Made by a program: the position numbers and the translations under genes. A DNA stretch of 64,000 nt. Origin: Pseudemcibacter aquimaris. Its GTDB lineage: Bacteria > Pseudomonadota > Alphaproteobacteria > Sphingomonadales > Emcibacteraceae. Every line of letters starts with the position of its first letter. Position 1 is the first letter of the stretch. Under the pieces are notes generated by a model, which was given only the letters and a program-made list of their open reading frames with translations, did not search any database and was not told the DNA's origin. The stretch is taken from the NCBI RefSeq assembly GCF_028869115.1, contig NZ_CP079800.1, forward strand, positions 2,418,001 to 2,482,000, read 5' to 3'. Positions 18,489 to 47,832 of this stretch are shown piece by piece.

Positions 18489-18497
18489 CAGGTTTCC

Positions 18498-22886: not shown

Positions 22887-22890
22887 CTTT

Positions 22891-24058: not shown

Positions 24059-24125
24059 GCAATTCTCTCCTTCTTTTTCATGGTGATTGATGAACGGTGA
24101 ACGACACTCCCTTCCCGCACGGGAT

Positions 24126-24164: not shown

Positions 24165-24173
24165 GGGGTTGTG

Positions 24174-24371: not shown

Positions 24372-24390
24372 GACATTTTGAGGGCAAAAA

Positions 24391-27317: not shown

Positions 27318-27703
27318 CAGAAAGGGATCTCCTCTGATGTAGGAAACTGCTGGCGCAAATTATCCTGATAGGCCGTAACCACGGTTTCGATGAGGGCCAA
27401 GACTTCGTCTTTTTGATAGTCAGCCAAAGGACGGTTCATTCCGATGCTGGCCACATATTCGCCGAGCGGCACCAAGGCAGCTTCCATGGCTGCACTCTCA
27501 TTTTTTGTCGGATCAATCATCCGGTTATTTCCTTTCTTCTTCCATGCGGACCAAGCCCTCTGGCAAGGGATGGAGCAGAATTTTCTGTAACTTGTTTCTC
27601 GCGCTTTGCTGCCTCGGGCGCTCCGTGCATCAAACCATCCGAAGCCTCGGGCTTGCCTGTCGCACACCGCACAAAAGACTGGCCCGGACGAGACGCGTGT
27701 CAT
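27317..27703 (-). CDS. Small zinc-finger-like phage protein (DUF6511-like)
   Basis: A 128-residue protein. The N-terminal part has C11-x2-C14 and C43-x3-C47 (CAVCDRQ, FCSIPCQRAW), a probable zinc site. The C-terminal part (about 60-125) is helical, with EAALVPLGEYVASIGMNRPL and a repeated AYQDNLRQ-like end, resembling DUF6511. It overlaps the helicase gene by ATGA. Function is unknown; its position suggests a role in recombination or replication. Confidence 0.68.
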   Translation of the reverse strand: MTRVSSGPVFCAVCDRQARGFGWFDARSARGSKARETSYRKFCSIPCQRAWSAWKKKGNNRMIDPTKNESAAMEAALVPLGEYVASIGMNRPLADYQKDEVLALIETVVTAYQDNLRQQFPTSEEIPF

Positions 27704-29367: not shown

Positions 29368-29376
29368 GACCGCCTC

Positions 29377-29949
29377 CTACTGCGCCCAGCTCGGGCGGTT
29401 CGGATTAGCAGGGGCTGCAGCAGGCGCATCGGGAGCCGGGGCAACATGATTACCCATCAACGCGGCATAATCCTTGTTGTCCGGTGTGATCGCCAAACGG
29501 ATCTCGTTTTTGTCATCACCGTTTTGATCTTTGCCCACATCAATCTTCGCCAGAAACTCAATGCCATCCAGGTCAGCCAAACCGGAGATGCGCCGCTTGT
29601 TTTGCGCTTCTGGTGACGTGTCTTTTGGCAGCAACTTGCGCGAAGAGTTCAGGATGCCCTTGATGAAAGAGCGGCCCATGTTGGCCCAATCAGGCCCCTT
29701 TGGACTGTAGAGGCCAATCAGGCTCCAGACCTTGCGACGGGCATAGGGACCATCTGTCACAACAAACTCGCAGGACAGATAGATTGATCCGGTAGTGTCA
29801 CTGCGTGTTGCGTAGCCACCAGTCCAGCCATGTGTATGGTCATCATAACCGCCCGGACGGATGGTCATTCTCACTTTCGCCAAGGTTCCCTTTGGGATCA
29901 GGTCGTAATTATTCTGCTCATCAGCAGAGTTGAAATCATTCCATGTCAT
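29377..29949 (-). CDS. Putative phage single-strand DNA-binding protein
   Basis: A 190-residue protein starting MTWNDFNSADEQNNYDLIPK, with an OB-like beta region (LAKVRMTIRPGG, YLSCEFVVTDGPYARRKVW, EFLAKIDVGKDQNGDDKNEI) and a disordered Ala/Pro tail. The start resembles DUF669-type proteins that are SSB-like and always sit beside Sak4-type ATPases. A good ribosome site precedes ATG 29949. The same opening motif, FNSA(N/D)(D/E)Q, appears in the N-terminus of the primase. Confidence 0.72.
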   Translation of the reverse strand: MTWNDFNSADEQNNYDLIPKGTLAKVRMTIRPGGYDDHTHGWTGGYATRSDTTGSIYLSCEFVVTDGPYARRKVWSLIGLYSPKGPDWANMGRSFIKGILNSSRKLLPKDTSPEAQNKRRISGLADLDGIEFLAKIDVGKDQNGDDKNEIRLAITPDNKDYAALMGNHVAPAPDAPAAAPANPNRPSWAQ

Positions 29950-29951
29950 GA

Positions 29952-30827
29952 TTATTGCTCCTCGCCCTGCTGTGGGCCGTTATCTTGGGATTGCTGTGGG
30001 AAGTGATGCTGCAGGCGCTCTGCTGCTGGCTGAACCGGCTGATGAATTTTGCCCATCAAACTGTCGAGCCGTGGCTCTTCCATCATCTCAAGGCGGCCAG
30101 AGCGGTCCTTTGCCGGATAGCCATAAGGGTTGATGGTATGTGTGATGAATGCGCGGTAGGCCGGGCCTTCTTCTGGCTTGATCTCAGCCATCGTAATCAC
30201 CTGATCCACGATGCCAGGCAGCTCCAATCCGGTTTTTGCACCCTCAATCTGTGGGGCAAAGACCTTGCGATTGAAGTCATCCAGACGCTCATCAAGGATG
30301 CCGACAAACCAGATGTTTTTGTCTCTGGTATGCTGGAGATGCGTAAGCCATGCGATCATCTCCTGACCATGAAGGCCGTAAGCCCCCCGAGTATCAGGCT
30401 TGCCTGTGCGATCAGACATGGCTTGGGGTTGCCCCTTGCACCAGTTGAAACACAGCCGTCCGGCGACAGTGATGCTATCAATGAAAACTGTCTTGTATTT
30501 GCTCAAAACATCCGCGCTGCCGAACTGTTCACACACGGCATCAAAGTGCGCCTGACTATATGGCTGATCATCACGCAGCGAGGGGTTGGGTCCGCCAATA
30601 AAGACAGCAAAGTCCCGACATTCCTGCCAAGTGCGCGGACGGATGCTATCACCCGTCCAGCCTTCAATAGCCAGGTCACCGGCTTCCAGATCCATGAAGA
30701 GGGTTTCATTGGCTGGCAGCGTCCAGAGCAAGGATGTCTTGCCAATGCCAGACTTGCCGAAGATCACGCCTTTGACCCCACGGGTCTCATTCAGGCGTTC
30801 ATCCGCAGAAATAATAGGAAGGCTCAT
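29952..30827 (-). CDS. RecA-like ATPase, Sak4-type recombination protein
   Basis: A 291-residue AAA_24 protein. Walker A is FGKSGIGKTS (23-32), a Walker B-like strand is YKTVFIDSITV, and the DLEAGDLAIEGW segment after Walker A is typical of phage Sak4 proteins that pair homologous single strands. The C-terminus is Gln-rich and disordered. The N-terminal and C-terminal genes around it (HTH protein and SSB-like protein) form a standard phage recombination cassette. Confidence 0.85.
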   Translation of the reverse strand: MSLPIISADERLNETRGVKGVIFGKSGIGKTSLLWTLPANETLFMDLEAGDLAIEGWTGDSIRPRTWQECRDFAVFIGGPNPSLRDDQPYSQAHFDAVCEQFGSADVLSKYKTVFIDSITVAGRLCFNWCKGQPQAMSDRTGKPDTRGAYGLHGQEMIAWLTHLQHTRDKNIWFVGILDERLDDFNRKVFAPQIEGAKTGLELPGIVDQVITMAEIKPEEGPAYRAFITHTINPYGYPAKDRSGRLEMMEEPRLDSLMGKIHQPVQPAAERLQHHFPQQSQDNGPQQGEEQ

Positions 30828-31039
30828 TTTGCGCCTCCCTGAATGTAGGTGTTTTCTGTGGTGCTTTGACGCATTTGATTGGCCTCAAATGCTTCAATGT
30901 CCTCAACACGGTAAACAACCCGACCACCGAGTTTCATAAAGGCAGGGCCTTCGCCCAACCAACGCCACCGTTCCAAGGTGCGCTCGCTCAAGTTCCAACG
31001 ATCGGCGAGCTCGATCTGATTTAAATGCTTAATGGACAT
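30824..31039 (-). CDS. AlpA/excisionase-like HTH protein
   Basis: A 71-residue MerR/AlpA-type winged HTH (LNQIELADRWNLSERTLERW, LGGRVVYRVEDIEAFEA). It is the first gene of the early minus-strand operon and overlaps the ATPase gene by ATGA. It could be the phage excisionase, a Cro-like regulator or an early activator. Its fold resembles the C-terminal extension of the P2 integrase, although the sequences are clearly different. Confidence 0.82.
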   Translation of the reverse strand: MSIKHLNQIELADRWNLSERTLERWRWLGEGPAFMKLGGRVVYRVEDIEAFEANQMRQSTTENTYIQGGAK

Positions 31040-31233
31040 CTGCCATTCCTTTCGCTTGCTTCAAATTGCAAAGAAAGAATGGCCTGTTATTCGAAATTCG
31101 TCGTGGGGACTAAATGTGGATGATTGGTGGATATATAACCCACATCAAAGGGGACGAATGAGGGGTGAGGAAGGGATGTCTGGGGGATGACTGATGCCGA
31201 ACACGGCACAGATGAAGGAAAAAGAGCGGGGGA
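31040..31233. promoter_or_regulatory. Early-operon control region with candidate operators
   Basis: A gene-free 194-bp stretch ahead of the early operon. It holds TGTGGAT (31115-31121), GGTGGAT (31126-31132) and the opposite ACCCACA (31138-31144). The outer pair, ATGTGG (31114-31119) and CCACAT (31140-31145), is a perfect inverted repeat. The same half-site (ATCCACA) is doubled beside the repressor promoter at 32010-32025. I read them as repressor sites; the early promoter itself I could not fix by eye. Confidence 0.5.
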
Positions 31234-31941
31234 TCAGCTTTTACGCACATCCACGTTTAAACGGTAAAGACCACGTTTGTTTGAGACGATCAAATCACGC
31301 CATGACGGGTTTTTCTGGGATTTAAAGACATCCTGCATGCGATGGGATTGAGAACCAGCTTCTGCCAGAACCTGCTTGCCGGATCGCCACATCCCCCCAT
31401 CCAGCATAGATTGATGCAAGCGAGCGACGACCTCCGCCTGAATAGGCCCAAGGGTATAGGTTTTGCCACTCAGGGAAACCTCTGTGAAATCCTTGTTATG
31501 CTTGAATCCATGATTTGATGGATGATCCACATCCCCCGTCAAATTGTGTTTCAACTCAACGCGGTCACGCTCTTCCCGGCGAATTACAAGCTCTTTGGTC
31601 GTTACATGCAATCCAGCTTCGGGGGAAAGCAGGTGCGAATATTCCATGTGGGGCGCGTCAAAAGCTGAGATGACAGAAGAGCCATTTGTGAAAATCTTAT
31701 AAGCATCGAAGTCTCTCAGATCTTGCAGCCCCTTAAACCGATCCTGAGAACAGGGCACAGTAAAGCCCTGACCTGTTTCTGCATCTTCTTCAATGTATCC
31801 GGTTTCAATGACAACGCCGAACAAACGAATTGAAACCTTGAGCAGACCGTTTTCAGCCAAATAAACCAAATCCCGCCGGGGCATCCCCCAACGGGCTTCA
31901 ATTTCTTCGAGCGTGAAGTAGTCTTTCTCAATGAAGCTCAT
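31234..31941 (-). CDS. Unknown DNA-binding-like protein next to the repressor
   Basis: A protein of about 235 residues with no family that I recognise. Near the N-terminus, FTLEEIEARWGMPRRDLVYLAENGLL looks like a helix-turn-helix. The C-terminal 80 residues (SGKTYTLGPIQAEVVARLHQ, then WRDLIVSNKRGLYRLNV) look like a winged-helix fold. It lies divergent from the S24 repressor, where Cro or an antirepressor would be expected. Start choice is uncertain: ATG 31941 is taken, but the frame is open to a GTG at 31989 that would overlap the repressor promoter. Confidence 0.6.
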   Translation of the reverse strand: MSFIEKDYFTLEEIEARWGMPRRDLVYLAENGLLKVSIRLFGVVIETGYIEEDAETGQGFTVPCSQDRFKGLQDLRDFDAYKIFTNGSSVISAFDAPHMEYSHLLSPEAGLHVTTKELVIRREERDRVELKHNLTGDVDHPSNHGFKHNKDFTEVSLSGKTYTLGPIQAEVVARLHQSMLDGGMWRSGKQVLAEAGSQSHRMQDVFKSQKNPSWRDLIVSNKRGLYRLNVDVRKS

Positions 31942-31982
31942 CAAAATATTAACCCTGCAATCAAGCGCCATACCATAAACGC

Positions 31983-32011
31983 TTGACACAGACTAATCAA
32001 TCCTTTTTAAT
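31983..32011 (+). promoter_or_regulatory. Strong sigma70-type promoter of the repressor
   Basis: TTGACA (31983-31988) and TTTAAT (32006-32011) with an exact 17-bp spacer, about 30 bp before the repressor ATG. Two direct copies of ATCCACA (32010-32016 and 32019-32025) overlap the -10 box and expected start, suggesting autoregulation. Confidence 0.75.
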
Positions 32012-32040
32012 CCACAATATCCACACCATGAGGATAAGTT

Positions 32041-32709
32041 ATGAAATATACGATGGCTGATAGATTGAAAGCGCGGACCCGCCAATTGGGTCTCAACGCT
32101 GGTCAAGTCGCAGAGATGGCTAATATCAACAGATCATTTGTCTATGATATTATGCGTGGTCGATCTGGTAATCCAAACCTAGAGAAACTCGACAAACTCT
32201 CAGATGCTATCAAGGTAGAGCGAAACTGGCTGCTCCATGGTATGGGAGATGTTGAGGGTGAAAACCCCATCATGGAAGATCCGGATGAAGCCTTTGTCGC
32301 CGTGCCATCAGTCAAGCTGACAGCCTCTATGGGCGGAGGGCGTGAAGTCATTGAAGACGTCGAGCACGGTGAGCCCTATCATTTTCAGAGCTCGTGGATA
32401 AAACATAAATTACAAGCCGACCCCAAGAACCTGAAGATCATGCATGTGGAAGGTGACAGCATGATGCCCACACTGCATGACGGCGATGTGGTACTTGTTG
32501 ACGTAGGGCGAAAGTCACCCACCCCTCCAGGCATATTTATTCTTCATGATGGCATGGGGCTGGTTGCCAAGAGGCTCGAGAACATTCCAAATAATGATCC
32601 CCCAATGGTTCGGGTGATCTCAGACAATAACTTTTACTCCCCATATGAACGCACGCTTGATGAAGTAAATATCATTGGCAAGGTTCGATGGTATGCGCGG
32701 GAGATATAG
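32041..32709 (+). CDS. Phage repressor, XRE HTH plus S24 peptidase
   Basis: A 222-residue CI-type repressor. The N-terminal HTH spans about 6-60 (LGLNAGQVAEMANINRSFVYDI). The C-terminal S24 LexA-like domain has the nucleophile Ser140 in VEGDSMMPT and Lys177 in GLVAKRLE. SOS-triggered RecA-dependent self-cleavage is the usual way such proteins release lytic genes, though the expected Ala-Gly site is not obvious (an Ala-Ser at about 95-96 in TASMGGG is the nearest). GAGG lies 7 bp before ATG. A divergent early operon lies to its left, plus-strand lysogeny genes follow. Confidence 0.93.
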   Translation: MKYTMADRLKARTRQLGLNAGQVAEMANINRSFVYDIMRGRSGNPNLEKLDKLSDAIKVERNWLLHGMGDVEGENPIMEDPDEAFVAVPSVKLTASMGGGREVIEDVEHGEPYHFQSSWIKHKLQADPKNLKIMHVEGDSMMPTLHDGDVVLVDVGRKSPTPPGIFILHDGMGLVAKRLENIPNNDPPMVRVISDNNFYSPYERTLDEVNIIGKVRWYAREI

Positions 32710-33393
32710 TTGATCAGGTTCAAGCCGATACCAGATGCATCTGATGCCCTGAAGCTCTCTCCTATGATGAATGCGTCGGAGAGGCTACTCTCCTACATTG
32801 AAGAACATGATGGGATTGGCCTGACGCCGTCGAAGGCTTTCAAACGGGTCTTTGTGGAATGGGCTGCAGGTGAGTTTAACTGGCCGGGCTATTCGAAAGA
32901 CGAGCTGTTCAAGTTCAACAAAGTGCTGAATGAAATCGACTTTCCCCCACTCATGGATCTCCATGACCTATTGATTACCCTTAAAATTGGCCGCCACTAC
33001 AAAGGCAAGTTCAAACTCACGAAGACAGGCAAGGAACTGTTTAAACAGCCCGGTCGCTTGTTTGGAGTGATGATCCCCATCTATTTGTTTGAGGTGGATC
33101 ATCACCGCTTTTCCAGACGCTCCGATAGCCTAATGGGAAACTGGGACATTTTTCTAAATGTAATAGGCGACCTCACAACCAATGGGGCCACGGGCGGCCA
33201 GATCAGAAGGGCCTTATACGGCGAGCATGAGGGCACAGACTTCGATTACACTCTGAGCAATTTATATGTGCATGTCCTGCGTCCCCTGTGCTGGACTGGC
33301 CTTCTCCTCGAAAAAGAAGGTGAAAAGCTCAGAAGAAATGAAACGAGCCTATTCGTAAAAACACTGCTGTGGGATGAGGCTCTTGAGCTATGA
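32710..33393 (+). CDS. Unknown protein in repressor operon
   Basis: A 227-residue protein that starts with TTG directly after the repressor stop; GGGAG stands 6 bp before it. I see no known family. It begins with a winged-helix-like part (GIGLTPSKAFKRVFVEWAA), contains a KFKLTKTGKELFKQPGRLF segment like those of replication-initiator or DNA-binding proteins, and ends with a helical domain rich in Leu. The tight coupling to the repressor (no gap) and to the nuclease gene (ATGA overlap) says it is expressed in the lysogen. Confidence 0.68.
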   Translation: MIRFKPIPDASDALKLSPMMNASERLLSYIEEHDGIGLTPSKAFKRVFVEWAAGEFNWPGYSKDELFKFNKVLNEIDFPPLMDLHDLLITLKIGRHYKGKFKLTKTGKELFKQPGRLFGVMIPIYLFEVDHHRFSRRSDSLMGNWDIFLNVIGDLTTNGATGGQIRRALYGEHEGTDFDYTLSNLYVHVLRPLCWTGLLLEKEGEKLRRNETSLFVKTLLWDEALEL

Positions 33394-34067
33394 AGCAGAA
33401 ACTCATCCATACAACGGCAACCGCATTCTCATTACTCGTCCTATCAACTGTATGTCAGGCAGAAGACCTCCAAGGCACAGCCTCCGTGATTGATGGAGAC
33501 ACACTCGAAATCCACGGCACACGCATCAGGTTGCATGGCATCGACACACCAGAGAGCAAACAAACCTGTGTGGCCAATGGGTCAACGTACCGGTGCGGCC
33601 AGAAAGCAGCCCTCGCTCTTTCTGACAAGATCCAAAGATCACCTATCCGTTGTACAGTGAAGGACACTGATCGATATGGCCGCTCAATAGCTGTTTGTTA
33701 CAAGAACGGCGAAGACTTGAACTCATGGATGGTTTCTCAGGGGTGGGCAGTCGCATATCGTCGATATTCTAAAGATTATGTGTCTCAGGAACAGTCCGCC
33801 AAAAGTAATAAAGCTGGCATATGGGCAGGTGACTTTGTGCTGCCTTGGGAATGGCGTCGAGGAAAGCGATTAACTCAGGTGGTGTCATCCGACCGAAACG
33901 GCGAATGCAAAATTAAGGGCAATATCAGCAGTAAAGGTAAGAAAATTTATCATGTCCCGGGTGGTCGTTGGTATGAGAAGACTCGGATCGACGAGAGCAA
34001 AGGCGAGCGCTTTTTTTGTTCAGAGCAGGAAGCCAAAGCCGCAGGGTGGAGGAAATCCTCTTATTAA
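33390..34067 (+). CDS. Secreted thermonuclease (SNase) with Excalibur/sunset-like C-terminus
   Basis: A 225-residue staphylococcal-nuclease-type enzyme. Residues 1-24 are a signal peptide (LLVLSTVCQA then AED). The SNase domain (about 26-150) has VIDGDTLEI, RIRLHGIDTPESKQ, DRYGRSIAVCY, and QGWAVAYRRYSKDY with the usual Asp, Arg and Glu catalytic positions. The last 55 residues (KGNISSKGKKIYHVPGGRWY, GERFFCSEQEAKAAGWRKS) are the small sunset-type domain seen behind such nucleases. It lies in the repressor operon, so it is probably made in lysogeny and acts in the periplasm or outside. Confidence 0.88.
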   Translation: MKQKLIHTTATAFSLLVLSTVCQAEDLQGTASVIDGDTLEIHGTRIRLHGIDTPESKQTCVANGSTYRCGQKAALALSDKIQRSPIRCTVKDTDRYGRSIAVCYKNGEDLNSWMVSQGWAVAYRRYSKDYVSQEQSAKSNKAGIWAGDFVLPWEWRRGKRLTQVVSSDRNGECKIKGNISSKGKKIYHVPGGRWYEKTRIDESKGERFFCSEQEAKAAGWRKSSY

Positions 34068-34116
34068 GCGCCTAAACACTCGCCTATTAATTCTAGACAT
34101 TCTATCTATCAGTGCG

Positions 34117-34151
34117 TAGTCTAAACTACCTGTAACTTTTAGACGAAACTA
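34117..34151. repeat. Direct repeat TAGtCtAAACTA upstream of the helicase gene
   Basis: Two 12-bp copies, TAGTCTAAACTA (34117-34128) and TAGACGAAACTA (34140-34151), two mismatches, start 23 bp apart in the 117-bp gap before the helicase gene. A third partial element TAGACATTCTA lies at 34094-34104. They may be operator sites for the cargo promoter. Confidence 0.4.
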
Positions 34152-34184
34152 TAGGGCCGTCAATCGGCGCTACGAGCAGATAGT

Positions 34185-36992
34185 ATGAAAATAGATAATT
34201 TTAAGCCACTAAAAGTGCGCTGGCCTCAATTATATGAGTATGCCCACCACGCAGAACAGTACGTTCACTCTGACCCCCACACTGCAATTATCAAGCTAAG
34301 ATGTTTTGCCGAACAGCTAGTGGGCACACTATACAGAGAACTAAACCTTCCATGTGATAGAAATGATGCGTTCTTCGAAAAGTTAACAGCTAAAGCATGT
34401 GTCGAAGTAGTGGACGAAGCTATTCTTCAAAAACTACATACAATTCGTATTCTTGGGAACAAAGCAGCTCATGGTGAGCAAGTGGAGACAGACGGTGCCC
34501 TGTCACTGCTGTATGATGCTTATGTGATCGGCCAGTGGATCTTCAAAACTTACAGCGGTTCCTTTGAAGAACAATATCCGGCTTTTGAGGAACCACTTCC
34601 GCCATCTAATGTTGGCGATGCGCTGCTCGAAAAAAACAAATTATTGAATAGCCAGCTTGAAGATGTGAAAGCTGAGTTGGCTCAGCTTCAGAAGTCTGAA
34701 CTTGAAGCACAGATAAAAAATAGAGAATTGCAACATTCTCTTAACGAAGCAGAGCTTCAAAGATTCAAAAACGCCTCAACCCGTGCGATTGAAACCATTG
34801 ATACCCGTTCTCACCCCTACCAAAACGACATTGATTTAAAGGACATTTTTGCATCCTACACATTAACTAACGACCAACAGAAACTGGTTAGTCGACTTGA
34901 GAGTTTTCTGAATGGGTCAAACGAAAAGCTATTCTTATTGCAAGGTTATGCGGGAACAGGGAAAACTTTTATTACAAAAGGACTAACAGAATATTTTCGC
35001 GCGATTGGACGAAATTTTGTCTTAGCGGCTCCGACAGGTAAGGCTTCTAAAGTAATCGCTGATAAAACTAAGTGCCAAGCATCTACTATTCACAAAGCTA
35101 TTTATTCCTTCAAGGACATTTCTGAATACCGGGAGGACGGTTTAGACGGGTCTCAGACATACAAATATTATGCTCAACTGGCTGTTAACGACCATTCTGC
35201 GGATACCGTATTTATTGTCGATGAGGCCTCAATGGTGTCAGATATCTATAGTGAAGAGGAATTCTTTCGATTTGGTTCCGGCTATTTACTCCAAGATTTC
35301 ATGGATTTTGTGAACCTTGATCATAATGACCATAACAAGAAAGTTATTTTCATAGGCGACAACGCTCAGCTTCCGCCAGTCGGCATGAAGTATTCCCCTG
35401 CATTAAACCCCCAGCATCTTCAAAAGAAATATAATAAGATTTCTTTGAGTTTTGAGTTAAGAGAAGTCGTTCGCCAGAAGGCTGATAGTGGAGTAATTGC
35501 AAATTCAATTAAGTTAAGAGACTCAATTGATAAATCTGTATTCAACCAATTAGACTTTAACTGCGAGTATCCAGACATTAAAGAAGTTGATTACTCCGAT
35601 CTGATATCCTGCTACTTAGACAGCTGTAATGCAAAAATCAATGCTGAGTCAATTATACTAGCCCATTCGAACGCAGACGTCGCTGCATACAATCGAAGGG
35701 TGCGTGAACACTTCTTCCCTGAACAGTCCGATATAGCAAGCGGCGACAAGGTGATGGCAGTAAGCAATAACTATGCATACGGCGTCGACATTTTTAATGG
35801 TGATTTTGGCTTGATACGGGAAGTACTCGGTTCACCTGAAACGCGGACACAAGTTATAAAGAGAAAGAACTCAGAGACTGATGTTGTCGAGGAAATTGAA
35901 GTCCCAATCACCTTCAGAAACGTTAATATTGGTTTCAAAGACCTTGATGGTCGAGCACATTTTTTTAATGCTAAAGTGGTCGAAAATTTAATCTACAGCG
36001 ATCACCCTAGTCTAACATCTGATGAGAACAAGGCTCTCTACCTTGATTTCTGCATACGAAACCCGAAGCTAAAGCCAAATACGTTAGAATTCAAAGAAGC
36101 GCTTAGATCAGACCTATACTTCAATGCTCTAAGAGTGAAGTTTGGATATGCTATCACTTGTCACAAAGCTCAAGGCAGTGAATGGAACAACGTATTTGTA
36201 AAATGCCGAACACACCAAAGCCAACTTACCTCAGATTATTTTAGATGGATATACACTGCTATCACGCGGACAAAGCAGAACTTGTTTCTCCTAGATCCAC
36301 CAAAAATTAAAATCGGTTCAGGGATCAAAGTTGTATCGTCTCCCAATTCACATCGGGAAATCCCGGAAGCAACTGTTCTTAATACGCACAAGACAAACCA
36401 AACTCAGAACAGCTTCACAGCAACAGAACCGCTATATGGAATTCCGCCTAATGCGCACTTTTCAAACAATCTTCTAAAACGAGTTCAAGCCACCATTAAA
36501 GACAAGAGCGAAACAATCCAAGATATTGAGCTCAAACAATACCAAGACATCTATTTCTTTAAGAACGACGACGATGCTGCAAGGATAGATATCAGATACA
36601 ATGGAAAGCAAAAAATTACCGCTATCACAACGCCTAAGCAAACAGCCTTCAGCCTTGAACTGTTGGAAATGCTCTCGCCTCTAAAGGGAGAAATTATTCT
36701 CGCCGCGTCAGAACCCCAGAATGAACTCATGGATTTTGGTGAAGATTTTCTCAACGCCTTTCACGAAAGACTTAGCCCAATTGCCAGCGAAAACGGTTTG
36801 ATAATTAGCAGTGTTGAACCATTGGATTGGAACCAAAGGTACCATTTCACTTCTGGAAATGAGAGAGCCGTTGTTGATATATTCTATAATGGGAAAAAAC
36901 AATTTACTAAATGCGCATTGGTTAAAACCGCATGCACATCCACTGCCTTTTCAAACTCCGTTCTGAAATTAATAATGGAAGAGTTAGGCTAA
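34185..36992 (+). CDS. DUF4145-like / RecD-UvrD-type helicase with tandem C-terminal repeats
   Basis: A 935-residue protein. Residues 1-125 resemble DUF4145 (LRCFAEQLVGTLYRELN, IRILGNKAAHGEQV), as at the N-terminus of some restriction and defence proteins. A coiled coil follows (150-200). The SF1 helicase core has Walker A GYAGTGKT (254-261), DEAS (346-349), GDNAQLPPVG, and the late YAITCHKAQGSEWNNV. The C-terminus has two copies of an unknown domain of about 75 residues (roughly 762-834 and 859-935), each with a DI-x-YNGK core. It is AT-rich compared with phage structural genes and overlaps the next gene by TAATG. I infer a defence role; a DNA repair role is possible. Confidence 0.8.
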   Translation: MKIDNFKPLKVRWPQLYEYAHHAEQYVHSDPHTAIIKLRCFAEQLVGTLYRELNLPCDRNDAFFEKLTAKACVEVVDEAILQKLHTIRILGNKAAHGEQVETDGALSLLYDAYVIGQWIFKTYSGSFEEQYPAFEEPLPPSNVGDALLEKNKLLNSQLEDVKAELAQLQKSELEAQIKNRELQHSLNEAELQRFKNASTRAIETIDTRSHPYQNDIDLKDIFASYTLTNDQQKLVSRLESFLNGSNEKLFLLQGYAGTGKTFITKGLTEYFRAIGRNFVLAAPTGKASKVIADKTKCQASTIHKAIYSFKDISEYREDGLDGSQTYKYYAQLAVNDHSADTVFIVDEASMVSDIYSEEEFFRFGSGYLLQDFMDFVNLDHNDHNKKVIFIGDNAQLPPVGMKYSPALNPQHLQKKYNKISLSFELREVVRQKADSGVIANSIKLRDSIDKSVFNQLDFNCEYPDIKEVDYSDLISCYLDSCNAKINAESIILAHSNADVAAYNRRVREHFFPEQSDIASGDKVMAVSNNYAYGVDIFNGDFGLIREVLGSPETRTQVIKRKNSETDVVEEIEVPITFRNVNIGFKDLDGRAHFFNAKVVENLIYSDHPSLTSDENKALYLDFCIRNPKLKPNTLEFKEALRSDLYFNALRVKFGYAITCHKAQGSEWNNVFVKCRTHQSQLTSDYFRWIYTAITRTKQNLFLLDPPKIKIGSGIKVVSSPNSHREIPEATVLNTHKTNQTQNSFTATEPLYGIPPNAHFSNNLLKRVQATIKDKSETIQDIELKQYQDIYFFKNDDDAARIDIRYNGKQKITAITTPKQTAFSLELLEMLSPLKGEIILAASEPQNELMDFGEDFLNAFHERLSPIASENGLIISSVEPLDWNQRYHFTSGNERAVVDIFYNGKKQFTKCALVKTACTSTAFSNSVLKLIMEELG

Positions 36993-38887
36993 TGCTTTCC
37001 AGTCGAGATGTATTTGCCAAGCGCAAGGAAGGCGAAATTGACGAAGCCTATCAAATGGCACTCCAATTAATGAAGAATTCTGAAATTGATGATTGGGATA
37101 GAAAAGCTTTCGGATGGTGCCTTATTGATCTTATCAAACGTGATACCAAGTTAAGCGATTTCAGCAAAATTGAAATTTATGGAAATCAACTAAGACCCTT
37201 GAAGGTAGACCCTTCTGACAAAGTATTCAGGGATCAAAAGGAATACGCTCTCAAACTATGTAACCCGAATGCCAAAATTATTCTTGAAGCCAAAAGTCAC
37301 AGCAAAAACGGCAATCATCAGCAGGCGTTAAATATATATCGGGATCTAATTCATAGGGGGGATAATTCCGCAGAAACACATACCAGTGCGGCTTGGGAGC
37401 TTTATAAGACTGCAAAGTCCATGATTAGCCAAGATCCTGCTAATCATCATGGCGCAAAAAGATTATTGAACGAGTACCTTCACCTCAATACTGAAAAGCC
37501 CTCGCTGCTGCATTCTTGTTTCCTACAACTAGCTGACAAGATTGCTATAGCGGGCAAACTAAACATGGGTGCGTTCGTTAGCATATGGAACTTAGAAAAC
37601 CTTCGTTATGAAGACTATGAACCGTTCATTACGAATGATGGAGAAACCTATCCTTCCCTAGCTGAAAAAGTCTTACAGCACGCCTGCAAAGATTCTTTTA
37701 GTCGTGAAGCTAAAAGCGAACTAATTTACCTATTGCCATTCGTTGAAAACTGCATCAGCCAATTTCCTGAAAACTTATGGCTAAAACTCAGCCAAACAAA
37801 AATATATTTAGGAATTGGTCAAAGTGACAAAGCACGTTCTGTTGGCTTACAGGTTGTAAAGAACAAGCCAAACAATTATTGGACCTGGGAGCTGCTTGGT
37901 GACATCTACGCCGGAGATGAGCCCGATATCAGCCTTTCCTGCTACTGCAAATCCTTGCTTTGTGAGAAAGACATAAACTTCATAACAAAGGTTAAACTTA
38001 AGCTCACGAATATTTTGATTGCACGTAACCTCCTTGCCGAAGCAAAATTTGAAGTTCAAGAAATCTCGAAATTCAAACAAGAAAAAGGCCAAAAGGTCCC
38101 AGACGAGTTAACCGAAATCATTAATCTGCCCTGGTTTGAAGGTCAAAAAGAGCTGAAATCCAACGAAGCCCTTTACCTGAAATATTCCGTCAACGCTGAT
38201 GAATTGCTAATATCTGATATGCCTTGGAAGAAAGCGGTATTAGGCGAGAAGTTCACAACAAAATCAAATCCAAACAAACCTCGTCGCAAAATATATATTG
38301 AAGATCATAATCACCCTATTGAAATTTCGATTCCTGAATCCAGAATAAATTTGCCCCAAAAGAGACATGGTCTTTCTATCGCGCTGAAAGGCGAAGAAGA
38401 TCTAGATGGTCGCTTTCAGATCTATTCTCTACAGCCAAGAGAAGCTGAGGACTGGGATATCTTCGGAAAATATATCGGCGTTGTAGACAACGTTAACCAT
38501 CAGAAAAAGTTATTACATTTTATGGTTAGCCGCCAAATTGATGGAATCATTCATTTCTCTGAATTAGAATCTATCTTCTCACTTGGCGCAGCAATCGAGC
38601 TACGACTAGCAACGTATAAATCAAAGAAGGGAACTGGCTTTCGCGTTCTGACAGCATCCAAAACTGACAAATCTCCCCCTTCCGAGTTAATTAAACAGTT
38701 TGAAAGTAATGTTTCCGCAGACAGGGGAATGGGCTTTACTGATGACAATATATTCATCCCGCCCCCATTAATGGAGCAGCACTCTATATACGATCAATGT
38801 ACAGTCAATGGTACGGCAATATTAAGCTACAACAAGAAACGCTCCGAATGGGGCTGGCGAGCATTAGAAATTCATAGTGTTGAATAA
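36992..38887 (+). CDS. TPR / OB-fold partner protein
   Basis: A 631-residue protein starting MLSSRDVFAKRKEGEID at the ATG that overlaps the helicase stop. Residues 10-400 are helical repeats of TPR type (DEAYQMALQLMKN, HQQALNIYRDLIHRG, WTWELLGDIYAGD). The C-terminal 190 residues look like two OB/S1-or cold-shock-like domains, the second with GMGFTDDNIFIPPPLME and WGWRALEI. I recall similar proteins as DUF7017-type but am not sure. The tight coupling implies a complex with the helicase, perhaps sensing nucleic acid by its OB folds. Confidence 0.72.
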   Translation: MLSSRDVFAKRKEGEIDEAYQMALQLMKNSEIDDWDRKAFGWCLIDLIKRDTKLSDFSKIEIYGNQLRPLKVDPSDKVFRDQKEYALKLCNPNAKIILEAKSHSKNGNHQQALNIYRDLIHRGDNSAETHTSAAWELYKTAKSMISQDPANHHGAKRLLNEYLHLNTEKPSLLHSCFLQLADKIAIAGKLNMGAFVSIWNLENLRYEDYEPFITNDGETYPSLAEKVLQHACKDSFSREAKSELIYLLPFVENCISQFPENLWLKLSQTKIYLGIGQSDKARSVGLQVVKNKPNNYWTWELLGDIYAGDEPDISLSCYCKSLLCEKDINFITKVKLKLTNILIARNLLAEAKFEVQEISKFKQEKGQKVPDELTEIINLPWFEGQKELKSNEALYLKYSVNADELLISDMPWKKAVLGEKFTTKSNPNKPRRKIYIEDHNHPIEISIPESRINLPQKRHGLSIALKGEEDLDGRFQIYSLQPREAEDWDIFGKYIGVVDNVNHQKKLLHFMVSRQIDGIIHFSELESIFSLGAAIELRLATYKSKKGTGFRVLTASKTDKSPPSELIKQFESNVSADRGMGFTDDNIFIPPPLMEQHSIYDQCTVNGTAILSYNKKRSEWGWRALEIHSVE

Positions 38888-38980
38888 AATATGATTTGGA
38901 TAATTCCACCCATTGCCCAATCACAACGAGTCCACTGTCCAGAACGATTTTCCCTTTAATTATAAGGGCTTCGCTGTCTC

Positions 38981-39001
38981 TTTAGTGCATTTTTAGTGCA
39001 C
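38981..39001. repeat. Left arm-type integrase site pair (TTTAGTGCA)
   Basis: TTTAGTGCAT (38981-38990) and TTTAGTGCAC (38992-39001), same orientation, start 11 bp apart. They lie about 70 bp left of the attachment core. An identically spaced pair lies on the other side at 39268-39288. Paired sites one helical turn apart on both flanks fit arm binding by a tyrosine integrase. Confidence 0.65.
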
Positions 39002-39008
39002 TAAGCAA

Positions 39009-39033
39009 AAAACCGCCCCAAAGGGACGGTTTT
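39009..39033 (-). terminator. Hairpin with flanking A/T runs
   Basis: An 11-bp stem with one mismatch (39009-39019 with 39023-39033) and AAA loop, flanked by A and T tracts, so it could act in both directions. On the minus strand it follows the tRNA 3' fragment, as a tRNA terminator would, which suggests the phage carries a replacement terminator behind the tRNA end it rebuilds. Confidence 0.6.
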
Positions 39034-39070
39034 CTGACTTTCGTATCTCTTTGATATACAAAGAGAATTT

Positions 39071-39116
39071 TGGTTGCGGGGGCAGGATTTGAACCTGCGG
39101 CCTTCAGGTTATGAGC
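39071..39116 (-). other. Hybrid att core: 3' part of initiator tRNA-Met
   Basis: On the minus strand this 46-bp segment runs from the anticodon loop (GCTCATAACC, anticodon CAT at 39113-39111) through the TPsiC arm (GGTTCAAATCC) to the 3' end CCGCAACCA, matching the 3' portion of proteobacterial tRNA-fMet. The 5' half is missing and the anticodon stem cannot pair with the bases before it, so it is not a functional tRNA. Phages that integrate in tRNA genes leave such a fragment at the distal end. The intact gene should lie to the right, outside the window. Confidence 0.88.
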
Positions 39117-39421
39117 GGATGCTAAGAAACTGTTTTTATTGTTCTTTACACCCTTTAGAATTGCGAAATAGCACCCTAACCTTTTGATATGTGGCACTTA
39201 GTTTTATGAGTCGGGGCCCAACTGTTTTCGCTCCGCTTCTTACCGATTATCAGGAACATTTGCTCCCTTTAGTGCACTTTTAGTGCACGTTTTTAAGGGC
39301 CATACGCAGCAATTCTCTGGGCTAATTTTGTTTTCGCGCTGCTTGATTATCCCCTTGATATAACTTGATAATAACGTCGTTCCAAGCATCCTTGTACGCA
39401 TAGAAATTCAAATTTGTGTAG
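39117..39421. other. Attachment-arm DNA between core and integrase, no gene
   Basis: A 305-bp gene-free stretch that holds the right arm-site pair and the integrase leader. It also contains TTGATA (39355-39360) and a second CTTGATA 11 bp later, near the integrase start, which may belong to its promoter. A short minus-strand reading frame across the core is only a translation of the tRNA sequence and I do not call it a gene. Confidence 0.6.
39268..39288. repeat. Right arm-type integrase site pair (TTTAGTGCAC)
   Basis: Two perfect copies, 39268-39277 and 39279-39288, 11 bp apart, same orientation as the left pair. They lie between the attachment core and the integrase gene. Confidence 0.65.
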
Positions 39422-40831
39422 ATGCTTATGCCAAAACTAACCAAAACATATGTCGAAAGAGCCCAACCAAAAGACAAGCCCTACTTCTTGTTTGATGACA
39501 GCTTGAGCGGTTTCTGCCTGCGTATTACCCCGAACGGCAAGAAAACATATTACGTTCAGTATATGGTGAACAAGAAGATCAAGCGTGTGATTATCGGCAG
39601 ACACGGCATCTTCACCACCGAGCGCGCACGCAATCAGGCAATTGTTTTGCTTGGTGAAATTAAAGCTGGCGCAGATCCCCAGAAAGAAAAGTCTCAACGC
39701 CGTCAAGAGCTATATGTCACTCAGCTTGCTGAACGGTACATGGATGAACATGTTGCTCAACATTGTAAGCCTTCTACCCGTGACGGCTACCGTCGTTACC
39801 TGGACAAGCACATCCTTCCATTCTTTGGCGACATGAAGATCCGTGACGTCCAGCGTTCTGATGTGGCTGAGTTTCACCACTCGCTTCGACACATTCCTTA
39901 TGAGGCCAATCGTTGCCTTGAGGTGATTTCCAAAATGTTCAACCTCGCTGAGATGTGGGGATTACGTGACGACCACACCAACCCAAGACGCCATATCAAG
40001 AAATACCCATCAAAGGCGCGTGAGCGGTACCTGAGCGAGGCAGAGGTAAAACGCCTGAGCACAGTCCTTGAAGAGGTCAAACGCTACCCAGACGAAAACC
40101 TAGCTGCAGCCTACTGTATTCAGTTGCTCCTGCTGACCGGTTGCCGTCTGGGTGAAATCCGTTCTCTCAAGTGGGACTATGTTGATCGCAAGCTGCAAGT
40201 GCTCAAACTGCCGGATTCAAAGACTGGTGCCAAATATGTATATGTCGGTAACACCGTCTTCAATCTTCTGGACGAGATATACGACCATCCAGCGCGTCCT
40301 GCAGACAACCCATATGTTATCTGGGGCCTGAATGATGGCTGTCATCTCGACAACGTCCAAAAGCCATGGCGGCGGTTCCGTAAGATGGCTGGGATAGAAG
40401 ATGTTCGTATTCACGACCTACGCCACAGTTTTGCATCTTTTGCTGTCAGCAAGGGCATGAGCCTTGCGATGATTGGGCGACTTCTAGGACATACCCAAGT
40501 TCAAACCACCGCCCGATATGCACATCTCATGGCAGCGCCTATGACAGAGGCAGCCAGCCAGGTGACAGATGTTCTTGGAGAGCTAATGAACCTGGACACT
40601 GAGGTGAAGGAGCAAAAACCTCGATGCTGCAAGCCAAAGGGCGTTATTGCTGGCACCAACATTAAAGCCCCAACTTTCCTATCTTCCGATCAAGCCGCTA
40701 AATATCTTAATGTCGCCCCTCGACTTATGGAAAACTGGCGGTGGCGCAAGGTAGGCCCTAAATTCGTCAAGGTGGGTAATCGGGTCCGGTATGAGCTGGA
40801 TGATCTGAAGTCATTCATTTCTAATAATTAG
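39422..40831 (+). CDS. Tyrosine integrase with C-terminal excisionase-like HTH
   Basis: A 469-residue phage integrase. The N-terminus is DUF4102-like (FDDSLSGFCLRITPNGKKTYY). The core-binding domain spans about 95-190. The catalytic residues are Arg242 in TGCRLGEIR, Lys267 in SKTG, His331-x-x-Arg334 in HDLRHSF, His357 in GHTQ and Tyr366 in TARYAHL. After the usual end, residues 418-469 form an extra AlpA/MerR-type HTH (FLSSDQAAKYLNVAPRLMENW, VGNRVRYELDDLKSFI). It is transcribed away from the core. A GTGGTT/AACCAC stem follows. The start (39422 or the ATG 2 codons later) lacks a clear ribosome site. Confidence 0.95.
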   Translation: MLMPKLTKTYVERAQPKDKPYFLFDDSLSGFCLRITPNGKKTYYVQYMVNKKIKRVIIGRHGIFTTERARNQAIVLLGEIKAGADPQKEKSQRRQELYVTQLAERYMDEHVAQHCKPSTRDGYRRYLDKHILPFFGDMKIRDVQRSDVAEFHHSLRHIPYEANRCLEVISKMFNLAEMWGLRDDHTNPRRHIKKYPSKARERYLSEAEVKRLSTVLEEVKRYPDENLAAAYCIQLLLLTGCRLGEIRSLKWDYVDRKLQVLKLPDSKTGAKYVYVGNTVFNLLDEIYDHPARPADNPYVIWGLNDGCHLDNVQKPWRRFRKMAGIEDVRIHDLRHSFASFAVSKGMSLAMIGRLLGHTQVQTTARYAHLMAAPMTEAASQVTDVLGELMNLDTEVKEQKPRCCKPKGVIAGTNIKAPTFLSSDQAAKYLNVAPRLMENWRWRKVGPKFVKVGNRVRYELDDLKSFISNN

Positions 40832-40879: not shown

Positions 40880-40964
40880 ATCATATTGACACACACATAA
40901 ATATCATATACCCCTATACACTACTTTATAGCCGCTAATGGCAAGCTATAAATCGGGGAGCAAT

Positions 40965-41870
40965 ATGGCTGCAGGGGATAACACCAAAGCAAAACTGGCA
41001 GAAATCAGCCAAGCACAGAAAGAGCGTCTATTTCATATAGACTTCAAACTCTATTTTCTGGGCTCGATAAACAGGTCTGATTTGGTCGAGCGATTCGGGA
41101 TCAAAGAAGCCGCAGCTTCTCGGGATCTATCCCAATATAAAGAACTATCTCCTGAAAACCTTGAATATGACACCAAGGTTAAAACCTATATTCAGCGTAA
41201 GGGCTTTAAGCCGCTTTTTGAGTATTCCGGCAGCCAAACACTGGCAGCACTTCTTCATGGCTTTGGTGACGACTATGTTAGCCCTGAGCACTCTTTGGTC
41301 CCTGCAGAAGCACCAACAGAATTAAACTTCCCGAACATCGATATTTTGGCTGCGATAACCCGCGCCATTCACAATGAAACACCGCTTGAGGTCACTTACC
41401 TATCTTTATCAAGTGGCAGCTCGAAACGAGAGTTTGTTCCATTCGCATTAGTTGACAATGGTCTTCGCTGGCATGTGCGTGGTTTTGATCGAGCAAGAGA
41501 GCGCTTTTCTGATTTTGTCATTAACAGGATCGCCAGCGCTAAACGTGCAAAGAACACATCAATATTGTCTCACGAGACAAAAGACGCGGACAAACAGTGG
41601 AACCGCATTGTTGAGATGCATATCGTTCCACATCCTGCCCTTAAGCATCCAGAAGCCATCAGCCTTGAATATGGCATGGATGAAGGGTTGTTAAACGTGG
41701 AGGTTCGGGCAGCTGTTGCTGGCTACCTTCTACGCAAGTGGAATGTAGACTGCACCGAAAATCACAAATTAGACGGGCCAGAGTATCATCTATGGCTGAA
41801 AAACACCCCAACCCTTTACGGCGTTGAAAACCTTGCGATTGCACCGGGTTATACAAGGAATGATCCATGA
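40965..41870 (+). CDS. WYL-domain transcription regulator (BrxR/CapW-like)
   Basis: A 301-residue regulator with an N-terminal winged HTH (RSDLVERFGIKEAAASRDLSQY), a WYL domain (ITRAIHNETPLEVTYLSL, VPFALVDNGLRWHVRGFDRA) and a C-terminal WCX-like part. Such proteins repress defence operons such as BREX, CBASS and restriction systems until nucleic-acid ligands bind. I use the second ATG (40965), with GGGGAG 4 bp before it. A TTGACA at 40886-40891 lies upstream. The type I restriction genes start 70 bp after its stop, on the same strand. Confidence 0.88.
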   Translation: MAAGDNTKAKLAEISQAQKERLFHIDFKLYFLGSINRSDLVERFGIKEAAASRDLSQYKELSPENLEYDTKVKTYIQRKGFKPLFEYSGSQTLAALLHGFGDDYVSPEHSLVPAEAPTELNFPNIDILAAITRAIHNETPLEVTYLSLSSGSSKREFVPFALVDNGLRWHVRGFDRARERFSDFVINRIASAKRAKNTSILSHETKDADKQWNRIVEMHIVPHPALKHPEAISLEYGMDEGLLNVEVRAAVAGYLLRKWNVDCTENHKLDGPEYHLWLKNTPTLYGVENLAIAPGYTRNDP

Positions 41871-41940
41871 AAACGTCAATATTTTATGAAACACAATTAA
41901 TGGCATATCGATTTAAAACGAATAATAAGAGGAATTCCGT

Positions 41941-43484
<1,544 letters not shown>

Positions 43485-43488
<4 letters not shown>

Positions 43489-44633
43489 GCGATCTAAACT
43501 ATCTGGAAAAGCTGCTTGATGGTGCTGAGGTTGGGTGGTTGCCTTTAGGTGATGTGACCCAATATGAGCAACCTACTAGGTATCTTGTGAAAACAAAGAA
43601 TTATGATGATGCGTTTAAAACACCCGTTTTAACAGCAGGGAAAACTTTTATTCTCGGATATACAGATGAAACTGACGGCATAAATAAAGCCTCCAAAAAT
43701 CCTGTGATAATTTTTGACGACTTTACTACAGCAAACAAATGGGTTGATTTTGACTTCAAAGCAAAATCATCCGCCATGAAAATGATTTCATCAAGTGATG
43801 ACAACAAATTCATTCTAAAATATGTTTATTATTGGATGAACACTTTACCAAGTGACCTTGTTGACGGCGATCATAAACGACAATGGATCAGTAACTTTTG
43901 CAATAAAAAAATCCCCATCCCCTGCCCAGATGATCCAGAAAAGTCGTTGGCAATACAGGCGGAGATTGTGCGCATCCTCGACGCTTTCACCGAGCTTACA
44001 GCCGAGCTTACAGCCGAGCTTACAGCCGAGCTTACAGCCCGCAAAAAACAATACAACTACTACCGCGATCAACTGCTAACTTTTGATGAGGGTGAAGACA
44101 TTATAAAAATGTCAATGGGGGAAGTTTACGGTTTTCAATACGGTAAAGGTAACACCATTCCATCTAAAGGTGGTCAATACCCCGTTTACGGCAGCAATGG
44201 CGTTGTCGGCAGCCATGATCAATATAATAGCGAAGACTCTCCAGTCATTGGTCATATTGGCGCATATGCTGGTATTGTTAATTGGGGAGAGGGTAAGCAT
44301 TTTGTAACTTACAATGGGGTTATCTGCAGACATAAATCAGAAAAAGTGCTGCCAAAATATGCTTACTATCTTTTATTGCTTCAAGACTATGGTTCGAAAT
44401 CCAACAGTGCATCACAGCCTTTTGTTTCATATCATATTCTAGAAGCCCCTGAAGTTTTAGTTCCATCATTAGAAGAACAAGCCCGCATTGTGGCCATTCT
44501 AGATAAGTTTGATGCACTAACCAATTCCATTAGCGAAGGCCTGCCACGTGAAATCGAGCTGCGCCAGAAGCAATATGAATATTACCGTGACTTGTTGCTG
44601 AGCTTCCCAAAGTCTGAGGAGGTAGCGGCATGA
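43485..44633 (+). CDS. hsdS: Type I restriction-modification, specificity subunit (EcoR124-like)
   Basis: A 382-residue HsdS. Two target recognition domains (about 10-160 and 205-350) each lead into conserved helices: [16 protein letters not shown] with [14 protein letters not shown], and [17 protein letters not shown] with [13 protein letters not shown]. The central helix holds the TAEL-type repeats known from EcoR124 and EcoDXXI, which set the spacer between the two half-sites. The recognition sequence cannot be derived by eye. Overlaps with hsdM and hsdR are 4 bp each. Confidence 0.95.
43992..44039 (+). repeat. Four tandem 12-bp repeats in hsdS (TAEL-type)
   Basis: Four perfect copies of GAGCTTACAGCC at 43992-44003, 44004-44015, 44016-44027 and 44028-44039, encoding E-L-T-A four times (residues 170-185). 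In EcoR124I and its derivative the same kind of 12-bp repeat occurs two and three times, and changes the spacer from 6 to 7 bases. Confidence 0.97.
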
Positions 44634-47600
44634 CTGAGGTGACTAAGCCCATTGCTGAAGGCAATAATTTCATCGTTCTTGATAAATATACCAAGGAATG
44701 GGAAGCGACTGAGAGCTATCAAAGCGAAAATGATCTAGAGCGAGAGCTTGTTCAGGACCTTGTCAATCAAGGCTATGAGTTTTTACCCGCGCTCACCACA
44801 CCTGAAGCCATGCTCGCCAATGTTCGGCTGCAACTTCAAACGCTAAATGGTATTGAATTTGCTGACGGTGAATGGGCGCGCTTTGTCGAAACCTACCTCG
44901 ACAAACCCAGCGATGGCATTGTGGATAAAACCCGTAAAATTCATGACGACTATATTCATGATTTTGTTTTTGATGATGGGCGTATCCAGAACATCTATTT
45001 GGTGGATAAGAAGAATATTGCACGCAACAAAGTGCAGGTGATCAAACAGTTTGAGCAAACAGGAAGTCACGCCAACCGTTATGATGTCACGATCCTTGTG
45101 AACGGTTTGCCACTGGTGCAGATTGAGCTAAAAAAACGCGGCGTGGCAATCCGCGAAGCCTTTAATCAGATACACCGTTACAGCAAAGAAAGCTTTAACA
45201 GCGATAATTCGCTTTATAAGTACTTGCAGCTATTCGTGATCTCTAACGGCACGGACAGTCGCTATTTCGCCAACACAGTTCAGCGTAATAAAAACAGTTT
45301 TGATTTCACCATGAACTGGGCCAAGTCTGATAACAGTCTGATTAAAGACCTGAAGGATTTTACAGCCACCTTCTTCCAGAAAAATGTACTATTGAATGTG
45401 TTGCTTCATTATTCCGTTTATGACGTTAGCGATACCCTGTTGGTCATGCGCCCCTATCAGATCGCTGCCACTGAACGCATCATGTGGAAAATCAAGAGTT
45501 CTTTTGAAAGCAAAAGCTGGAGCAAGCCAGAAAGTGGCGGTTATATCTGGCACACCACTGGATCAGGGAAAACGCTCACCAGCTTTAAGGCGGCACGACT
45601 GGCCACAGAATTAGACTTTATCGACAAGGTTTTCTTTGTTGTGGACCGTAAAGACCTCGATTTTCAGACAATGAAGGAATATCAGCGATTTTCACCTGAT
45701 AGCGTGAATGGGTCTGACAGTACTGCAGGCTTAAAGCGCAACATTGAAAAGCAAGACAACAAAATTATCGTCACCACCATCCAAAAGCTTAATAACCTGA
45801 TGAAAAGCGAAGGTGACTTAGCCATCTACAACAAACAGGTCGTGTTTATCTTTGATGAATGCCACAGAAGCCAGTTTGGTGAAGCACAAAAGAACCTTCA
45901 AAAGAACTTCAAGCGCTATTACCAGTTTGGCTTCACAGGTACACCTATCTTCCCGCAAAATGCACTGGGCTCAGAGACAACAGCAAGCGTCTTTGGGCGT
46001 GAGCTGCATTCCTATGTGATAACGGATGCCATTCGCGATGAGAAGGTGTTGAAGTTCAAGGTCGACTATAATGATGTGCGCCCACAATTTAAGGCTATTG
46101 AAACTGAGCAAGACCTTCAAAAACTAAGTGCGGCTGAGAACAAATTAGCCTTATTGCATCCAGAACGCATCAACGAAATATCACAGTATATTCTGACTAA
46201 CTTCAGGCAGAAAACGCACAGATTGCATGGTGGCAATAACGGCTTTAATGCCATGTTTGCTGTCAGCAGTGTAGACGCTGCAAAGTCATACTATGAGACC
46301 CTTAATAATTTGCAGGCTGAGAGTGAAAAGCCTTTAAAAATTGCTACGATCTTTTCTTTTGCAGCGAATGAGGAACAAGATTCTGTCGGTGCAATCCCGG
46401 ATGAAAGCTTTGATGTCTCAGCGATGAACAGTAGTGCAAAGGAGTTCTTGAGCGCTGCGATCAAAGATTATAACGGATTTTTTAAGACCAACTTCAGCGT
46501 CGACAGTAACGGGTTCCAGAACTACTACCGCGATTTGGCTAAACGGGTTAAGACAAAAGAAATTGATTTACTCATTGTGGTCGGTATGTTCCTGACTGGT
46601 TTTGACGCCCCAACTATGAACACTTTGTTTGTAGATAAAAACCTTCGCTATCACGGGTTAATGCAGGCATTCTCGCGCACTAACCGCATTTATGATGCCA
46701 CCAAGACCTTTGGCAACATTGTGACATTCCGCGATCTTGAGACAGCAACCATTGATGCCATTACCCTATTTGGTGACAGAAACACAAAAAACGTGGTGCT
46801 GGAAAAAAGCTATAAAGAATATATGGACGGCTTCACGGACAATGCTACAGGTGAAGCTCGGAGAGGTTTTATTGAAGTTGTAAAGGAGCTGGAAGAAAGG
46901 TTCCCGAACCCTGAAGAAATAGTAAAAGAGGCAGACAAAAAAGCCTTTGCTAAACTTTTCGGGGAATATCTACGCGTTGAAAATGTACTGCAAAACTATG
47001 ATGAATTTGCCAGTCTCAAGGCTCTTCAGGATGTGGATGCCACAGACGCGGACGCCCTTAAAGCATTTCAAGAAGAGCACCATCTAAGTGATGATGAGTT
47101 ATCAGCACTTCAGGCTATTAAATTACCTGCCGATCGCAAGGTACAAGATTATCGGTCCTCTTATAACGATATTCGTGATTGGCTTCGCCGGGAGAAAGCT
47201 GCTGACGAGAAGGATCAAGCCACTATTGATTGGGATGATGTTGTCTTTGAGGTTGACCTACTTAAATCTCAGGAAATTAATCTGGATTATATCCTTGAAC
47301 TAATTTTTGAAAAAAACAAGAAAACCAAAAACAAATCAGAATTGGTCGATGAGGTGCGTCGGGTTATTCGTGCCAGCCTTGGCAACAGGGCTAAAGAAAG
47401 CCTTCTTGTCGACTTTATCAATCAAACCGACCTTGATGGAATTGGTGATAAAGCCACCGTCATTGACGCCTTTTTCACATTTGCTCAAGCTGAGCAAAAG
47501 CGTGAAGCCGAAGCACTCATCAATGATGAGAATTTAAATAGTGACGCTGCCAAGCGATATTTAACCACTTCGATCAAAAGAGAATACGCCAGTGAAAATG

Positions 47601-47731
47601 GGACAGAGTTGAATGCACTTTTGCCGAAAATGAGTCCTTTAAATCCTCAATATTTGACCAAGAAGCAGAATGTTTTTCAGAAAATTGCTGCCTTTGTTGA
47701 AAAGTTTAAAGGGGTTGGCGGTGAAATATAG
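44630..47731 (+). CDS. hsdR: Type I restriction-modification, motor/nuclease subunit
   Basis: A 1033-residue HsdR of the EcoR124 (type IC) kind. The PD-(D/E)XK nuclease site is Asp152 (RYDVTI) with Glu166-x-Lys168 (QIELKKRG). The SF2 translocase has Walker A HTTGSGKT (308-315), DECH (409-412), GFTGTPIF, and motif VI-like [13 protein letters not shown] helical C-terminal domain binds the M2S core. All key residues are present, so the system looks intact. Confidence 0.96.
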
Positions 47732-47832
47732 AAAGTTTTTCCACGATACATGTAGGAAAACCATTGTAAAGAGAAGGCCTGTACACCACGAGGTTAAGGC
47801 AAGCAATAATTCAGTATACGGGGGGTCGCAAA

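Follow-up and report, generated by a model that had tools for sequence, protein, structure and literature searches.

What does the 3' half of an initiator tRNA gene, its 5' half absent, represent between the end of one phage and the integrase gene of another? The question is raised by a 46-bp tRNA-fMet fragment at positions 39071-39116 (core 39072-39116) of the window, by which we mean the whole 64-kb stretch of DNA analysed (G000:C1:2418001-2482000, within a single 3.37-Mb contig of listed completeness 100%). ARAGORN called zero tRNA genes in these 64 kb. The first-pass annotation had read the fragment as a hybrid attachment site in a double lysogen, and had predicted a further core copy at the left end of the first prophage (P1) and an intact tRNA-fMet gene at the right end of the second (P2). 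Both exist in the flanking genome, and we hold with high confidence that the locus is a tandem double lysogen of P1 and P2 at tRNA-fMet, with a truncated third phage (P0) to its left. The features of the window are as follows.

1..39116, no strand: P1 prophage, right 39 kb (whole unit, genome 2405009-2457116)
200..9986, minus: P1 genes for tail tip, assembly and tape measure (the P2 copies begin at 55791 and extend beyond the window end)
13577..21000, minus: P1 genes for major capsid, portal, and large and small terminase
30824..31039, minus: P1 HTH_17 protein of 71 aa, close to the switch region; candidate excisionase
32041..32709, plus: P1 S24/HTH repressor, 214/222 residues identical to the P2 repressor
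34185..38887, plus: P1 right-end cargo, PDC-M16A/M16B candidate defence pair with TOTE-type domains
38981..39001, plus: paired motif TTTAGTGCATTTTTAGTGCAC, P1 right end, putative integrase arm site
39006..39033, minus: terminator-like hairpin just 3' of the tRNA 3' half, on the P1 right end (z -4.64)
39071..39116, minus: tRNA-fMet 3' fragment, the middle of three att cores; 3' half with CCA end, ending at the anticodon loop
39072..64000, no strand: P2 prophage, left 25 kb (whole unit, genome 2457072-2511878)
39268..39288, plus: paired motif TTTAGTGCACTTTTAGTGCAC, P2 left (integrase) end, putative integrase arm site
39422..40831, plus: P2 tyrosine integrase, 469 aa; arm-binding, SAM-like and catalytic domains and a C-terminal HTH_17
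40938..53334, plus: P2 left-end cargo, WYL protein, type I restriction-modification (hsdM, hsdS, hsdR) and an 1833-aa Hhe/PDC-S37-like helicase-nuclease

Three cores and two related prophages

The assembled genome contains three collinear cores, at 2405009-2405053 (left), 2457072-2457116 (middle) and 2511834-2511878 (right), the middle core lying 52 kb from the left and 55 kb from the right. At the right core the tRNA gene is whole: a tRNA-fMet(cat) on the minus strand (2511833-2511909), with 5S rRNA on the same strand at a distance of 121 bp and a 5-kb masked stretch beyond. An integrase gene follows the left and the middle cores on the same strand, one per unit and each adjoining its own junction; 305 bp separate the middle core from the start of the P2 gene. 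The array has an intact tRNA-fMet at one end and a displaced tRNA 3' fragment at each further junction. Immediately around the middle core the earlier description holds in its particulars, since leftward of the fragment come P1 cargo and then phage genes, rightward the integrase at 39422, and the DNA beyond 39116 belongs to a phage. A second, identical tRNA-fMet gene at 3238758 adjoins 5S and large-subunit rRNA, and no fragment lies beside it within the 16 kb examined. Terminator-like hairpins mark the ends of all three phages (z of -4.64 for P1, -6.03 for P2 and -4.26 for P0) and also the second tRNA-fMet locus (-3.79); the P1 hairpin is included in the span singled out by the first-pass annotation, which starts at 39009.

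The layout of a short repeated element accords with this order. At up to 2 mismatches, the 3.37-Mb genome has four copies of the paired motif TTTAGTGCAYTTTTAGTGCAC and a reversed control has none: one copy is on the integrase side of the left core (2405205, 1 mismatch), one on each side of the middle core (2456981 and 2457268), and one on the phage side of the right core (2511743). Within the window, TTTAGTGCAY has four copies, all flanking the middle core, where 0.21 are expected. Chance is ruled out by the three matching cores, the enrichment of TTTAGTGCAY and the absence of the paired motif from the reversed control. The motif pairs are probably integrase arm sites. The middle site resembles a reconstituted attP to which each phage has given one arm, and single arms at the outer sites with both in the middle are what a tandem double lysogen (attL-attP-attR) should show. 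Tandem double lysogens of phage lambda have the order attL, prophage, attP, prophage, attR, with both arms around one core at the middle site and one-armed outer sites, as found here; the present locus differs from lambda in its initiator tRNA target, in having two non-identical phages and in the truncated third phage outside. The same two-armed junction is present in a metagenome-assembled contig (L012), the left side of which is 84-85% like the right end of P1 and P2 over 135-145 bp, and which encodes an integrase 83% like that of P2; this is either a second tandem junction or a circular form.

Both units are phage by gene content, P1 directly and P2 through its homologues. P1 (52,108 bp) carries tail, capsid, portal, terminase, primase, helicase, exonuclease and annealing genes, that is, both late and early phage functions. 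P2 (54,807 bp) aligns with it over 36,033 bp at 90.69% identity, and its homologues of the P1 tail, portal, terminase, primase, helicase and exonuclease proteins are 88-99% identical and in the same gene order; this protein comparison omitted the P2 capsid and the P1 annealing gene, both masked by longer antisense frames, and at the capsid position P2 has a 344-codon frame of the same length as the P1 capsid. The earlier claim that tail genes recur to the right of the P2 cargo is borne out by proteins of 1178, 140 and 551 aa (200-5752 in P1, 55791-61343 in P2), which are 93-96% identical. P2 may be defective, because a 1.5-kb insertion with a 400-aa frame lies between its structural genes and its RuvC-like gene is split across two frames. 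By large terminase (18498-20525), the closest named phages among 20 matches listed are Wolbachia phage WO and Rhodobacter RcBaka-like phages, at 50-54%, and the integrase is only distantly related, the top-ranked phage match being 33%. The C-terminal HTH_17 of the integrase resembles (39%) the free-standing 71-aa protein of this phage family that is the candidate excisionase.

Formation and maintenance of the tandem

The two temperate phages, which are related and have near-identical tyrosine integrases (457 of 469 residues identical, 12 differences), would each have inserted at the anticodon-loop end of the tRNA gene, an integrase-mediated crossover joining the phage-borne tRNA 3' half to the host 5' half; the crossover is placed there because sequence identity stops at that point. 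As each phage would bring a tRNA 3' half and a terminator of its own, the tRNA would be rebuilt at the right end while P1 and P2 share the middle site, an attP-like hybrid of P1 right arm, core and P2 left arm, and the right end of P0 would supply the leftmost core. We infer that both P1 and P2 were inserted by integrase.

Among the alternatives, the one that survives best, unlikely as we judge it, is that the second phage entered through homologous recombination with the resident prophage and not by integrase at the att site. Some 36 kb of about 91% identity were on offer for such an event and its end product would look alike, but the longest identical run between P1 and P2 is 290 bp, identity per 500-bp window ranges over 80-97% and a near-identical tract is absent, so that no crossover mark is seen inside the shared genes; moreover, the arms and cores are enough for site-specific entry. 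An assembly artefact, joining prophages of the two tRNA-fMet loci or of mixed strains, seems very improbable. The genome does have two identical tRNA-fMet genes, each adjoining 5S rRNA; against this, the contig is single and of full listed completeness, two prophages about 9% apart are not easily collapsed or cross-joined, and the attP-like junction is exact, with a similar two-armed junction in the independent L012 (possibly a circular form). In-place duplication of one prophage followed by divergence, which would account for the shared gene order, can be dismissed given the roughly 9% divergence, the different cargo at both ends, and a 13-kb viral contig whose late proteins, 91-100% identical to those of P1 or P2, indicate that such phages exist separately.

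The double lysogen brings together two phages that are expected, from sequence, to belong to one immunity group. Their repressors are not of the differing kind found in a heteroimmune pair: they differ at 8 of 222 residues, and 89 of the 98 bp preceding the repressor start are identical. The arriving second phage should therefore have met immunity and would need co-infection or transfer of the whole locus, which makes co-infection or joint capture likelier than superinfection; four of the eight repressor changes fall inside the HTH match, however, so repressor specificity could still differ. Unlike the homologous middle, the cargo differs between P1 and P2 at both core-adjoining ends. In addition to the right-end pair of P1 and the left-end genes of P2 given above, the P1 left end has a HindIII-like nuclease, a DUF1156 methylase and two transposase genes, and the P2 right end a DUF2779 protein. 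Such differing defence cargo may favour the keeping of both prophages.

Tandem prophages are already known, and the P1-P2 arrangement is an unusually clear and complete case of a known kind. In Mycobacterium abscessus, prophiT36-2a and prophiT36-2b likewise share a single tRNA att site (tRNA-Thr) in tandem, an arrangement explained by recombination of attP with attL or attR; they differ from the present pair in that their repressors are not closely related and their immunity is integration-dependent, where those of P1 and P2 are 96% identical (PMC9934374). Similarly, a Sulfitobacter study describes similar temperate phages, phi-A and phi-D, with a common tRNA att site and proposes tandem polylysogens; these were not stably kept, whereas the P1-P2 pair is present in an assembled genome and has different cargo (PMC7305329). 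The Islander survey gives 125 tandems of at least two and four of at least three in a table of 3919 islands, and its arrays resemble P1 and P2 in having an integrase and a tRNA fragment for each unit (PMC4383910).

A truncated phage on the left flank

Native chromosome on both flanks is usual for a tandem lysogen, and not strictly required; on the left it is not what was found. The left flank is a 7.2-kb truncated third phage followed by a host-like EamA gene. Over 7,033 bp (2397840-2404872) this DNA matches an IMG/VR contig at 99.8% identity; the contig ends at the equivalent of 2404872 and has, on its other side, terminase, portal and capsid genes 67-77% like those of P1 and P2. In the present genome the match is cut short within a frame that combines AbiEii-like and EamA-like parts. 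The region (G000:C1:2397840-2405053) encodes a serine recombinase and a DUF2924 protein. Judged by its sequence, P0 is thus what is left of a third phage, truncated and encoding a serine recombinase. The DNA beyond the left end of P1 being truncated phage and not native chromosome, the leftmost core is probably the right-end core of P0 rather than the original 3' half of the host gene; native host DNA at this place was considered and rejected on account of the viral match. The double-lysogen reading of the first-pass annotation stands, but the annotation had missed P0, with its serine recombinase, at the border of the leftmost core.

A relative of P0 in Micavibrio (L030), 70% identical, extends up to and through a core and is followed by a different integrase. 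When the left-flank DNA was searched in 32 family genomes it matched the present genome alone, and no empty site was found among them. Cores were also sought, at up to 3 mismatches, in three virus records with P0 relatives, and none was found in these records, which stop before or near the expected place of the core. Another serine recombinase gene of the P0 type, 53% identical, lies at G000:C1:915718-917010. Of 30 loci with relatives of the P0-type recombinase, seven (L263-L266, L268, L271 and L272) have a tRNA-Ser gene no more than 400 bp downstream.

Several recombinase types beside the initiator tRNA

The hybrid att site proposed by the earlier annotation is upheld, but appears as part of something wider that it did not recognise: a tRNA-fMet stacking hotspot among related genomes, where recombinase genes of several types adjoin the cores. 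A tRNA-fMet match was present in 18 of the 32 family genomes searched, and fragments were counted in three of these genomes, most of the others being split into many contigs. The three tRNA-fMet genes of G004 are accompanied by three, three and one fragments, one much decayed; in G002 the counts are one and one; and G003 has none beside its two genes. The two three-fragment loci of G004 (C1:2720001-2853000 and 3900001-4047000; L086-L100) have differing recombinase genes beside the cores. Set beside the Islander tandems, this one genome already has two such loci, each with three fragments of putative elements. In an order-wide search, at least 210 of 297 genomes had a tRNA match among those listed, with few candidates scored per genome.

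Tyrosine integrases of at least two kinds adjoin the cores of the G002 and G004 units, and a further kind, of 406 aa, scores below the Pfam cut-off for Phage_integrase. For 31 relatives of the P2 integrase in the genome_contigs set, a core lies within 2 kb upstream in 16, and within 450 bp in 13 of those. The T-stem is variable, with 14 haplotypes among 50 distinct contexts, but pairing is kept: strict Watson-Crick cells number 241 of 250, against a mean of 169 and a maximum of 188 in 1000 shuffles, a comparison among related sequences that does not translate into a probability.

Large serine recombinases adjoin the same site. In G002, G004B, G001 and L027 the frame of such a gene enters the core antisense and ends inside it. 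Relatives were found in 32 of a class-wide sample of 385 genomes (E up to 1e-60); the 30 loci kept gave 28 frames, 12 of which end 43 bp into the tRNA-fMet core. Three of the other 16 are near a different tRNA call (Met, Thr or Glu), and 13 are without a tRNA in the stretch scanned. Frames reading antisense into the tRNA-fMet 3' half have tails of the type VAGxGFEPxTFRL (L103:141-1946, L106, L096, L075, L214-L240), and the string GFEPTTFRL had no occurrence in the literature searched. In G473, three uninterrupted tRNA loci from two relatives delimit a 44-kb insertion at 3017664-3061723; a block of 14 bp is shared at the tRNA 3' end, and inverted repeats are visible by eye at both junctions. 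As proof of serine-mediated integration this insertion is weakened by the tyrosine integrase gene at its left end, which lies beside a fragment resembling the 3' end of another tRNA.

From these observations we lean, with confidence little better than even, towards the view that the 3' end of the rRNA-linked initiator tRNA is a docking site common to at least four recombinase types (two tyrosine and two large-serine) whose elements stack in tandem, in genomes that are probably alphaproteobacterial. The present host would itself belong to that class, going by the names of relatives of its integrase. Arrivals would swap in their own T-arm and terminator, one serine family would read into the tRNA and take its last residues from that gene, and the P1-P2 hybrid attP would be one junction of the stack. 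Such a serine family would run contrary to the statement by the Islander authors in 2014 that tyrosine recombinases alone were known to target tRNA genes (PMC4383910). Among the titles and first lines of abstracts listed by a literature search, thin on subscription papers, none described serine recombinases targeting tRNA genes, which does not establish novelty. The mixed-recombinase hotspot is the more novel part of our results.

The locus provides a complete three-site case of stacked related prophages with predicted shared immunity and different defence systems, and so bears on the coexistence of homoimmune prophages. The hotspot would mean that an essential initiator tRNA gene is rebuilt again and again by mobile DNA, and the serine integrases that may target it, if they truly do, would offer a ready-made, conserved integration site.
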